From Acidimicrobiia bacterium (GTDB lineage Bacteria > Actinomycetota > Acidimicrobiia > Spongiisociales > Spongiisociaceae), in contig VXMM01000035.1 in the NCBI GenBank assembly GCA_009841105.1, forward strand, positions 1 through 52,631: 52,631 nucleotides of DNA, written 5' to 3'. Below the pieces are notes generated by a model. The model searched no databases, had not been told where the DNA came from, and saw only the letters and a program-made list of their open reading frames with translations. The first letter of the stretch is position 1. The number at the start of each line of letters is the position of its first letter. The translations under genes were made by a program, and so were the position numbers. Below, one piece after another: positions 1,121 to 38,915 of the stretch.

Positions 1121-1552
1121 CCGCAGTCGTCAAGCTGTAGAACTCTCGACGAGTTTCAGCGGCCCCGGCGAAGCCGGCGGAAGGGTGCCGGTGTCTGTTT
1201 GAGCCGAGTACCCACGGTGTCCGGTGTCTTTGGTTGGCCGCGTCCTGTGAGCGTGGCCGTCGTGGGCGGCGTGGGTCCGGCGCCCGACAAGGGGGTTGAA
1301 CATGTCACATCCCCGTCGCATACTGTCCGGCAGTCACAAGCACCGCCGGTTTCTTGCTTTTCGACGTCGAGGGAACCGGAACCGGGATCATTTCGGGAGC
1401 GGACCCGTCGGGGGATAGCGGAACGCGTTCGGACCGAAGGAGGTGGTGGCTGGGGGATGGGCCCGCTGGGTTGGGGCGTGTTCTAGCGTTTTTCGCGCTC
1501 TCGTTGTTTGGGGTGTCGTAGCGGACTACCGGATCCGGACGCGCCGGAAGGT
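1121..1552. other. 432-bp gap without a protein gene
   Basis: No convincing coding frame lies between the SDR gene and the convergent esterase gene. The first part has small inverted repeats (AACTC/GAGTT at 1141-1155 and CCGGC-GAA-GCCGG at 1165-1177) that could form a weak end-of-transcript structure. The second part holds non-coding element copy A, listed separately. Confidence 0.6.
1291..1508 (+). ncRNA. Candidate non-coding element, copy A
   Basis: Copy A shares two blocks with the gap at 21068-21320. The first is a 17-base 5' block at 1293-1309 (GGGTTGAACATGTCACA, two differences from the other copy). The second is a 3' block at about 1442-1500 containing GGTGGTGGC, GGGGG, GGGCCCG and TTTTTCGCG in the same order. 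TTGAAC at 1296-1301 is followed after 17 bases by CATACT, a plausible promoter. No protein frame crosses it. It may be a small RNA gene or a decayed mobile repeat. Orientation is inferred from the promoter-like box. Confidence 0.35.
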
Positions 1553-9044: not shown

Positions 9045-9071
9045 GCCCGCTCTCCATCCGGTCCGTCCCTC

Positions 9072-9146
9072 CTAGTGGTCTGTCTGTGTAATGGCGGTGT
9101 GGTATGGCCGCCAGAGCACCCGGTAGTTTCGCAGACAGACCACTAG
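9072..9146. mobile_element. MITE-like element, 75-bp internally deleted copy
   Basis: Bounded by CTAG, with near-perfect terminal inverted repeats (CTAGTGGTCTGTCTG / CAGACAGACCACTAG). It equals the reverse complement of the 168-bp copy at 38718-38885 with about 93 internal bases missing; only one substitution is evident in the shared ends. The stop codon of the permease gene (9143-9145) lies inside its terminal CTAG. It sits within an otherwise tightly packed operon and may fold as a hairpin in the mRNA. Confidence 0.8.
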
Positions 9147-10054
9147 CCCTTGATCCCGAACATCTTCATACCCTGGATGAAATACTTCTGAGCCACCGCG
9201 AACAGGATCACGAGCGGCGCCGTCATGAGTGTGGCGGCCGCCATCATCAGGTGCCATTCGGTGAGCCGCCGCCCCCGGAATGTGAACAGCCCGAGCGAGA
9301 GCGGGAACTTGTCGGGGTCCTGCAAGTATATGAGCGGCCGGAAGAAGTCGTGCCAGGTCCAGACGAAGGTGAACACCGCCATGACGACCAGCGCCGGCCT
9401 GACCAGTGGGAGCATTATCTGCCAGAAGATACGGAACTCCCCGGCGCCGTCCACCCGCGCCGCGTCGTCCAGCTCTTTGGGAACACCTCGGAAGAACTGG
9501 CGCATCATGAAGATGAAGAACGCCTCCCCGAACAAAGCGGGAGCGATCAGGGGTATGTAGCCGCCCAGCACCCCGAGTTGCTTGAAGAGGAGAAAGGTCG
9601 GGATGAAGGTGACCACGTACGGGATCATCATGGTCGCCAGGGTCACGCCGAACAGGATGTCGCGCCCGGGGAAACGGAGACGGGCGAAGCCGTAGCCCAC
9701 CAGCGCGCAGGACAGCACGGTTGCCACGGTCACCGAACCGGCGTAGAACACGCTGTTGGAGAAGAACTGGAGGAAGGGGTAGCCCGGGTAGCTGAGGACC
9801 GACACGAAATTCTCCCACCGGAACACGGCGGGCAGCCACTGGACCGGCACCGTGAAGATTTCCTTGTTCTCCTTCAGGGCCGAGCTCAGCATCCAGAGCA
9901 GGGGGATGGTGAAGCAGACCGACAAGACGCTGAGCACCAGGTGCCACCCGGTCTGGCGGAGCCAGCCGCCGCGCCTCCCGTACCGGGTGGGCTGGGCGGC
10001 GGTCCCGTCGCCTTGGTCTCGTCCGGTGAGGGCCGACGGCCGGATCGCCCTCAT
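9143..10054 (-). CDS. Carbohydrate ABC transporter permease (MalG/UgpE-type)
   Basis: A 303-aa inner-membrane permease with about six membrane segments; the first is WHLVLSVLSVCFTIPLLWML (about residues 36-55). The EAA loop that contacts the ATPase is present as ELDDAARVDGAGEFRIFW..LPL (about 197-220). It ends GMKMFGIKG, as many MalG-type proteins do. It is the second permease gene, 36 bases after the first. The TAG stop is formed by the end of the MITE-like element. Confidence 0.92.
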   Translation of the reverse strand: MRAIRPSALTGRDQGDGTAAQPTRYGRRGGWLRQTGWHLVLSVLSVCFTIPLLWMLSSALKENKEIFTVPVQWLPAVFRWENFVSVLSYPGYPFLQFFSNSVFYAGSVTVATVLSCALVGYGFARLRFPGRDILFGVTLATMMIPYVVTFIPTFLLFKQLGVLGGYIPLIAPALFGEAFFIFMMRQFFRGVPKELDDAARVDGAGEFRIFWQIMLPLVRPALVVMAVFTFVWTWHDFFRPLIYLQDPDKFPLSLGLFTFRGRRLTEWHLMMAAATLMTAPLVILFAVAQKYFIQGMKMFGIKG

Positions 10055-18556: not shown

Positions 18557-18609
18557 CTAGGGCGTGTTGGCGCTATGAGCACTGGCTTGTTATCGAGGGT
18601 CCCGTGGTC
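18557..18609. repeat. 53-bp CTAG-ended repeat, copy 1
   Basis: The reverse complement of this block aligns without gaps to 36002-36054. The most conserved parts are the CTAGGGCGTGTT end, CGCT..GAGC in the middle, and GGGTCCCGTGGTC versus its counterpart at the other end. It lies 8 bases after the SDR stop and abuts a decayed copy of the other CTAG family. It may be the terminal repeat of an insertion sequence. Confidence 0.65.
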
Positions 18610-18683
18610 GGTCTGTGGGCGGCGGTGGGACATGGCGGTTCAGAGCACGCCGGCGCAACGTAGAACGACCATGCTCAACTAGC
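18604..18683. repeat. Decayed copy of the MITE-like family (short form)
   Basis: GTGGTCGGTCTGTG, GGCGGTG, ACATGGCGG, CAGAGCACGCCGG and a terminal CAACTAG follow the same order as in the 75-bp copy at 9072-9146, with scattered substitutions. It is too diverged to be active. It overlaps the 53-bp repeat by six bases. Confidence 0.5.
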
Positions 18684-21067: not shown

Positions 21068-21320
21068 GATTTTCGCGTTCTGGCAGAAAAGGGTTGAATC
21101 TGTCACAGGCTTGCTATACGTTGCCTATCGCCAAGCACCTACACCGGCCGATGAGAGAGACCGATCGGAGCGGCCGGCCCGAGGGGAACATTCAAGGCTT
21201 CATGGAGCGAACCGCCGATCATCCGGCACAGTCCGGGCATGGCCGACCACGCTCCAACAGGATGGATGGTGGCGGGGGCAGGGCCCGGTGCGGAGCACCG
21301 GATTTTCGCGTTTTCGAACT
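21068..21320 (+). ncRNA. Candidate non-coding element, copy B
   Basis: The block is bounded by a 12-bp direct repeat GATTTTCGCGTT (21068-21079 and 21301-21312). It carries the 17-base box GGGTTGAATCTGTCACA (21091-21107) and the 3' block GGATGGTGGC..GGGGG..GGGCCCGGTG (21264-21290) that are shared with 1291-1508. TTGAAT followed by TATACG after 15 bases is promoter-like. A 7-bp GC stem followed by ATTTT closes it. A transcript of roughly 170-190 nt would fit. It could equally be a decayed repeat element. Confidence 0.4.
21285..21306 (+). terminator. Intrinsic terminator-like hairpin
   Basis: CCGGTGC-GGA-GCACCGG (21285-21301) is a perfect 7-bp stem with a 3-base loop, followed by ATTTTCGCGTTTT. 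It would end transcripts from rsmI or from the candidate RNA before tatD. Confidence 0.6.
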
Positions 21321-21329
21321 TTGGGCGGA

Positions 21330-21349
21330 GGGCGTCATATATGACGCCC
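21330..21349. promoter_or_regulatory. 20-bp perfect palindrome upstream of tatD
   Basis: GGGCGTCATATATGACGCCC is fully self-complementary and lies 90 bases before tatD. Its right half continues into a 26-bp unit that is repeated 35 bases downstream. It is a candidate binding site for a dimeric regulator. Confidence 0.5.
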
Positions 21350-21398
21350 TGATCCTCAGGTTCACCGCACCGTATATGACGTTCTGATCCTCAGGTTC
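21338..21398. repeat. Direct repeat of 26 bp upstream of tatD
   Basis: The 26-bp units at 21338-21363 and 21373-21398 start with TATATGACG and end with CTGATCCTCAGGTTC; they differ at two positions. The second unit is 40 bases before the tatD start. Confidence 0.8.
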
Positions 21399-23964: not shown

Positions 23965-24134
23965 GGTGGTCTGTCTGTGCAACACCTTGGCGTGTTCTGC
24001 TTGCCATCGGCGTCCCGTCGCTGCGTTCCGCTTTCCTCTACGTACGCTACGGGTACGCATCCGTCAGTGGGCATTGCGAGGAACACCGCTGGCTGGCGCA
24101 TACCACCCCGCCGTCCCACGGTCAGACCACCTAG
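23965..24134. mobile_element. MITE-like element, diverged full-length copy
   Basis: About 170 bp, colinear with 38718-38885. Shared parts include GTGGTCTGTCTG, CCATCGGCG, CGCTGCGTTCCGCTT, CGGGTACGC, CGTCAG.GGGC, TTGCGAGGAACACCGCTG, CATACCAC.CCGCC and a terminal CTAG. The right terminal repeat is eroded (GGTCAGACCACCTAG). It fills most of the 320-bp gap between ispE and tRNA-Gln; a short CAGACAGAC fragment at 23951-23959 may be another remnant. Confidence 0.75.
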
Positions 24135-35973: not shown

Positions 35974-36001
35974 GCGTGGTGTCGGCGGGGACTAGTTGAT
36001 C

Positions 36002-36054
36002 GACCACGGGACCCGCGATGACAGACGAACGCTCAAAGCGTGAACACGCCCTAG
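36002..36054. repeat. 53-bp CTAG-ended repeat, copy 2
   Basis: Inverted relative to copy 1 at 18557-18609 and aligned without gaps; the ends (GACCACGGGACCC and AACACGCCCTAG) are conserved. It lies 29 bases after the rho stop, as copy 1 lies just after a stop. Confidence 0.65.
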
Positions 36055-38467: not shown

Positions 38468-38721
38468 TCTTCTTCGTTCGCTTCCCGCCCCACGCCGACC
38501 TCTCCGCCGAGGCCATCGAGGAGATTGTGCAGAGTTGTCTCGGCCGGTCCGGCTCCGTGATAGGGGCATCGGAAGGCGCTATAGACGTGGAGTTGTCCGA
38601 TGAGAATCCGGCCGCTGCGCTGGCGGTACTGGCCGCTGAACTTCGGGCGGCCGGAGTGCCTTCCTCCACGATCATCGATATCCCATCCCGGGGTTTACGT
38701 CTAGGGATTCACGAGGTCTAG
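38464..38721 (+). CDS. Orphan 85-aa protein coupled to prfA
   Basis: The gene begins at GTG 38464, overlapping the prfA stop (GTGA), and ends with TAG at 38719-38721, inside the terminal CTAG of the MITE-like element. The product (FFVRFPPHADLSAEAIEEIV at its start, with DVELSDENPAAALAVLAAEL and a GLRLGIHEV end) looks like a compact alpha/beta fold. I do not recognise it. The tight coupling and normal codon use favour a real gene. The element may have trimmed the original C-terminus. Confidence 0.6.
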   Translation: MIFFVRFPPHADLSAEAIEEIVQSCLGRSGSVIGASEGAIDVELSDENPAAALAVLAAELRAAGVPSSTIIDIPSRGLRLGIHEV

Positions 38722-38885
38722 TGGTCTGTCTGCGAAACAACCGGGTGCTCTGGCGGCCATCGGCGCCCCTCGCTGCGTTCCGCTTCCTCGACGTACCGCT
38801 GCGGGTACGCCTTCGTCAGCGGGCCTTGCGAGGAACACCGCTGCCGACGCCATACCACACCGCCATTACACAGACAGACCACTAG
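38718..38885. mobile_element. MITE-like element, 168-bp intact copy
   Basis: Bounded by CTAG with terminal inverted repeats CTAGTGGTCTGTCTG / CAGACAGACCACTAG. Inside are nested pairs: CCTCGC with GCGAGG, and CGTACC with GGGTACG around a GCTGC loop, so the RNA or single strand can fold as a long hairpin. It has no coding frame. It separates the 85-aa gene from prmC within a tightly spaced cluster and supplies the TAG stop of the former. Four related copies exist in the window. Confidence 0.85.
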
Positions 38886-38915
38886 AGGGTGCAGCAAGCA
38901 CGGGGATCGGTAGGC

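Follow-up and report, generated by a model that had tools for sequence, protein, structure and literature searches.

We found that the rsmI–tatD spacer carries an element that, by comparison of its relatives, is shown to be one copy of a dispersed family of predicted small RNA genes with a promoter block and a terminator-like end. The window, meaning the whole 52,631-nucleotide stretch of DNA that was analysed, holds this element and a diverged second member, copy A (Table 1). The RNA gene family is previously undescribed, and our literature search found no paper on such RNAs in Acidimicrobiia. Our reading, to which we assign a probability of about 0.6 as a whole, is that of a gene family, amplified for dosage, whose RNAs dimerise and act in trans while gene conversion keeps the copies alike. 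Taken by itself, the part of it that concerns a structured, independently transcribed RNA gene appears very probable from the sequence comparisons.

A predicted RNA gene between rsmI and tatD

The putative RNA, as shown by comparison of the copies, is about 150–180 nt long and has three helices: the closing stem P1, P2 with a palindromic loop and the hairpin P4. In 78 genus-level sequences, 19 pairs changed on both sides, compared with 6.5 ± 1.9 after shuffling, and 33 superfamily sequences gave 71 double-changed cells (27 ± 5 shuffled). An alignment of 94 sequences gave 270 such cells (88 ± 10.5 shuffled) and a score of 0.380 against 0.186; this alignment, A4, was made to the covariance model R2 and thus leans towards the model structure, although genus g30, absent from the R2 building set, supplies 39 of its members. 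When the partners were slid by 1–3 columns, each of the three tests showed a strong fall in score. There are more G-U than A-C cells (157 vs 84 and 122 vs 58), an excess that speaks for the + strand as the transcribed one. The unit is not a reading frame, given that its copies have lengths out of phase (20, 31 and 27 by remainder modulo 3), and protein coding was rejected.

The promoter block common to the copies reads TTGAA..TGTCACA..TATA or, in its wider form, GGGGTTGA..TGTCACA..CATA/TATA. It lies mostly 28–29 nt upstream of the RNA start and is present in 86 of 93 members belonging to three genus groups; shuffled sequences contain it in 30% of cases when any position is allowed. The combined pattern is rare outside the elements and hence almost specific to them. 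Downstream, TTTT follows the terminator-like hairpin in 77 of the 93 members. For the rsmI–tatD copy alone, with its short promoter spacer of 15 bp and a U-tract of just four T, a generic sigma-70 and terminator scan scored neither a promoter nor a terminator, and its folding energy does not surpass that of shuffles (z −0.03 and −0.38). The features of one copy are thus weak by themselves, its folding energy is uninformative, and the evidence is comparative.

The first-pass annotation had described a promoter and a perfect 7-bp stem followed by ATTTT, and had considered a transcript of about 170–190 nt between the two genes plausible. The promoter hexamers and the stem are indeed there, and the comparison of the conserved promoter block, the covarying structure and the terminator-like end gives good support to a discrete, non-coding transcript of some 180 nt. 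The best reading is a predicted transcript from about 21127 to 21306.

Table 1. Features of the element and of copy A, in window coordinates
Feature	Position	Strand	Basis or remark
Upstream inverted-repeat remnant with the first GATTTTCGCGTT (21068–21079) in its loop	21063–21085	+	Orthologs have GGGCGAGATTCTCGCGTTCTCGCC; 12-mer confirmed
Promoter block: TTGAAT 21094–21099, TGTCACA 21101–21107, TATACG 21115–21120	21094–21120	+	Conservation among members; pattern near-specific to the elements
Predicted structured RNA body	21128–21301	+	R1 match of 166.8 bits; all helices covary
Helix P1, 5' strand CGCCAAGCACC	21129–21139	+	Partner 21265–21274; covariation
Hairpin P2, 21144–21150 paired with 21171–21177	21144–21177	+	8 of 8 pairs covary in the superfamily
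Palindromic loop of P2, CCGATCGG	21161–21168	+	Loop palindrome test
Unpaired conserved linker GAGGGGAACAT	21181–21191	+	GAGGGAUCAU in other subfamilies; alignments A2 and A3
Hairpin P4, GGAGCG 21204–21209 with CGCTCC 21250–21255	21204–21255	+	Covariation
Helix P1, 3' strand	21265–21274	+	One mismatch in the window copy; model alignment
G-rich segment GGTGGCGGGGGCAGGGCCC, almost invariant	21268–21286	+	Invariant columns of A3
Terminator-like hairpin, CCGGTGC 21285–21291 with GCACCGG 21295–21301 (loop GGA), then ATTTT 21302–21306	21285–21306	+	Sequence; hairpin pairs covary in A2
3' tail, palindromic unit twice, 35 bp apart	21338–21398	.	Tail present in about half of the copies
Copy A, diverged member, promoter TTGAAC/TGTCACA/CATACT	1296–1501	+	RNA 1332–1464, GACGTC loop, end TTTTTCGCGCTCT

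The segment GGUGGnGGnGGGGGnGGGCCC is almost invariant across the copies. A G-quadruplex is possible at GGTGGTGGCGGGGG, and a two-tier quadruplex of the G-rich strand GGUGGnGGnGGGGG could compete with P1. The quadruplex pattern fits 92 of 94 members, largely because the G-rich strand is conserved.

The 12-mer GATTTTCGCGTT borders the element on both sides, as had been annotated, with its second occurrence at 21301–21312 (233 bp from start to start). Its reading as a target duplication does not hold. The genome of the window has 62 occurrences of TTTTCGCGTTCT and none of the reversed control, which marks it as a family motif. A version of it stands upstream of the promoter in about half of the copies and at the 3' end in others, where it comes after the terminator hairpin. 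In four orthologous rsmI–tatD spacers, a separate inverted repeat, GGCGAGA..TCTCGCC, has it as its loop. A target-site duplication was rejected on these two grounds, recurrence in the family and a place inside an inverted repeat of its own in the orthologs. No terminal inverted repeats are among the repeats found in the window.

Several other repeats were observed. The 35-bp-spaced palindromic units (TATATGACGCCCTGATCCTCAGGTTC) of the 3' tail differ in number among orthologs. Another interspersed family, about 80–96% identical, occupies 24045–24130 and 38797–38882 of the window and, in inverted orientation, 9047–9150 and 38714–38910, with a fragment in locus L038. An inverted pair of about 57 bp (18557–18613 and 35998–36054, 81% identity) also occurs in loci L146 and L142 at 78–84%.

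Copies, taxonomic range and genomic sites

BLASTN scored 40 copies in the 3.05-Mb genome of the window, with 74–84% identity. For a covariance model of the aligned copies (R1), 39 of these 40 were fetched with their flanks. R1 gave 65 matches at E ≤ 1 in the same genome and, for every one of ten genomes of the genus, 27–47 strong copies. The exact core 19-mer was found at 50 loci in Acidimicrobiia-type metagenome-assembled genomes, and all of these have the element at least in part; its matches in Paenibacillus and Hymenobacter were dismissed as chance, neither carrying the element. The diverged copies have the promoter block and the 3' segment in common with the main family. One of them is copy A, which the first-pass annotation had already listed and which proved real: R2, a second covariance model built from 33 diverged and main-family sequences, matches it with 84.6 bits, a value that is not independent since copy A belongs to the training set of R2. 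Models lacking copy A match it as well (a profile with 27 bits; R1 with 22 bits, E 0.003).

With R2, the genome of the window (G000) has 86 copies, nine congeners have 40–64 each, two genomes of the sister genus g2 have 38 and 88, and six genomes of genus g30, in another family of the class (f3), have 15–35 each. A single genome of genus g3 has only two. Copies are thus present in 19 genomes, at 15–88 per genome in 18 of them, a scale that the first-pass annotation could not have revealed. R2 matched none of the approximately 376 remaining genomes among the 395 sampled from the class, and none of 395 others sampled across the phylum; these large scans were run with stricter filters and could have overlooked weak single copies there. 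Unlike g1–g3 and g30, genus g4 and all other f3 genera that were sampled lack the RNA, which points to frequent loss or transfer. Several copies in G000 lie at contig ends (for example, C43:3-162, C49:35-182, C64:1-154 and C63:188577-188739). Copies may thus be points where the assembly breaks, and their true number may slightly exceed 86.

Rfam 15 gave no match in the window, in 18 main-family loci, in eight superfamily-member loci or in copy A at gathering and relaxed thresholds. The scan of these loci returned only tRNAs and sub-threshold chance matches; relatives in Rfam, including HEARO, ROOL, GOLLD, OLE, 6S and sRNAs, were rejected because nothing passed a curated threshold. The plasmid and phage collections gave no match, and carriage by phages or plasmids was also rejected. 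Two viral contigs share the G-rich 21-mer, but the remainder of the RNA is lacking in them (18 bits, E 0.11).

All tested copies are intergenic, and no gene called by a simple codon-usage caller overlaps any copy. Flanking proteins are conserved on both sides at 24 sites between G000 and the related genome G006 and at 17 sites between G000 and G005, and at more sites on one side. More than half of the main-family copies stand at sites conserved between species. For pairs of strong copies at the same site (27 with G006 and 21 with G005), element identity averages 0.86 and 0.85, respectively, and that of the flanking spacer is 0.71–0.73. The ortholog is the best match in only 12 of the 27 and 4 of the 21 pairs. 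Several non-orthologous pairs within a genome have 98–100% identical RNAs but differ in sequence upstream of the −10 region. That copies are often closer to others of their own genome than to their orthologs indicates concerted evolution, in which sites are largely kept and sequences are homogenised within a genome. The mechanism could be gene conversion or repeated replacement at the site. Related genomes also differ by presence and absence. The rsmI–tatD spacer has no element in G002 and G009, where it is 33 bp long, and the L041 site has the element in G000, a 3' remnant indicating loss in G005, and none in five other spacers that were read. The element-less spacers L219, L221 and L223 of that site (in G006, G003 and G001) contain a further family of simple repeats, with GGTCAGTGGTCAGT and CAACTAGCAACTAG in runs.

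The palindromic loop and competing explanations

A self-complementary hexamer is present in the P2 loop of 97% of 86 unique loops, compared with 45% (at most 58%) of shuffled ones; with Watson–Crick pairs only, the figures are 78% and 20%. The hexamer itself varies, and GACGUC, GGCGUC, CGAUCG, GGCGCC, GGUACC, GCGCGC, ACGCGU and CAAUUG are all found. GGCGUC, in 16 members, is self-complementary only with G-U pairs, that is, as RNA. The apical loop thus stays self-complementary while its sequence changes, as looked for in a kissing loop, and this suggests that the RNA may pair with itself as a kissing-loop homodimer. A DNA-level explanation is possible for the perfect palindromes. That the palindromes reflect chance or a DNA–protein feature and the RNA acts as a monomer seems unlikely to us. 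The main genus family mostly shares a single palindrome, CGAUCG, so that many members are not independent, and this fits a monomer; the occurrence of at least seven different hexamers and the excess over shuffled loops speak against it.

In the dosage-amplified reading, transcription of many loci would provide a high RNA dosage, and the RNA would act in trans. The P2 kissing loop would join two identical RNAs or the products of different copies. P1 and the G-rich strand would form a core that is probably recognised by a protein or RNA partner. Gene conversion would keep the copies alike because their products must work together. We also consider, as a rather doubtful extension, that this may be an abundant, self-assembling RNA of a new class, encoded at as many as 88 scattered places in a genome. 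Homogenisation would then mainly copy the transcribed part, possibly with an RNA template, and leave each locus its individual upstream promoter sequence.

The leading alternative is a selfish repeat in which a structured RNA happens to be encoded: a non-autonomous, MITE-like mobile repeat or selfish RNA element whose promoter and structure serve its own spread rather than the host. High copy number, homogenised copies, a patchy taxonomic distribution, the presence and absence at the rsmI–tatD and L041 sites and the avoidance of divergent promoters would all suit such an element. It would be harder to reconcile with the lack of terminal inverted repeats and of a target duplication, the conserved sites of more than half of the main family, the promoter and structure kept by old copies, and the absence from the plasmid and phage collections; in an unsystematic view of the neighbours, no associated transposase was noticed. 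We regard a purely selfish repeat as improbable, though a serious competitor, and favour a dosage-amplified, dimerising, trans-acting RNA.

The neighbouring genes bear on two further alternatives. Among copies with both neighbours called, 32 are convergent, 25 and 17 are co-directional in the two arrangements, and 5 are divergent. A cis-acting, riboswitch-like leader or attenuator of the downstream gene would explain why promoter, structured RNA and terminator precede tatD in this order in the window. Of the 83 copies whose right neighbour was called, only 25 are followed by a gene on the same strand; the convergent arrangement is the most frequent, and the neighbouring genes differ from site to site. 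The element is thus not a leader of the downstream gene, and we rejected this explanation as barely credible. The bias towards convergent and downstream positions, together with the palindromic units of the 3' tail, would instead agree with a DNA-level element, such as a bidirectional terminator, an insulator or an intergenic chromosome-organising palindrome. This too is very unlikely, since the conserved promoter block, the long-range covariation with its G-U excess and the loops that are self-complementary only through G-U require RNA.

Relation to known RNAs and repeats

With up to 88 promoter-bearing copies of a structured RNA per genome, this would be an unusually amplified small RNA family. 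Its conserved yet sequence-variable palindromic loop offers a direct and cheap test of RNA dimerisation, and its combination of fixed sites with homogenised sequence is a natural setting in which to test whether short RNA genes dispersed in a genome undergo gene conversion. Annotation would miss the family, which has no Rfam entry and is restricted to a few genera within a single class.

The cuckoo RNAs of alphaproteobacteria and Yfr2 of cyanobacteria are multicopy paralogous sRNA families. Cuckoo RNAs are defined by an exposed CCUCCUCCC loop and have small copy numbers, and a palindromic dimer loop is not known to be part of their definition. The present family resembles both in having several homologous non-coding genes per genome; where those paralogs have their own promoters and terminators, the copies here have a promoter block and a terminator-like end. 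It differs from the cuckoo RNAs in that the CCUCCUCCC loop was not seen in our alignments and copies number up to 88. Both PMC7143759 and PMC10253847 mention the cuckoo RNAs. ROOL, GOLLD and OLE are large bacterial RNAs that form homo-oligomers (PMC12286853). Pairing between identical RNAs, here only proposed, would be the likeness, whereas the present RNA is about 150–180 nt long, has many copies and matches nothing in Rfam. Interspersed structured repeats include bcr1 of Bacillus cereus and REP/BIME, REPs being palindromes of 20–40 bp (PMC3733652). They also have many foldable intergenic copies that are present or absent between strains, but the present family adds a conserved promoter, a three-helix covarying RNA and orthologous sites across species. 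Omega RNAs and HEARO, of IscB and TnpB elements, are likewise structured and dispersed; the present RNA differs in having no Rfam match, and it would carry no flanking guide, because the predicted transcript starts and ends inside the conserved unit. Multicopy sRNAs, oligomeric ornate RNAs and interspersed repeats thus each have one property in common with this family, and never the combination.
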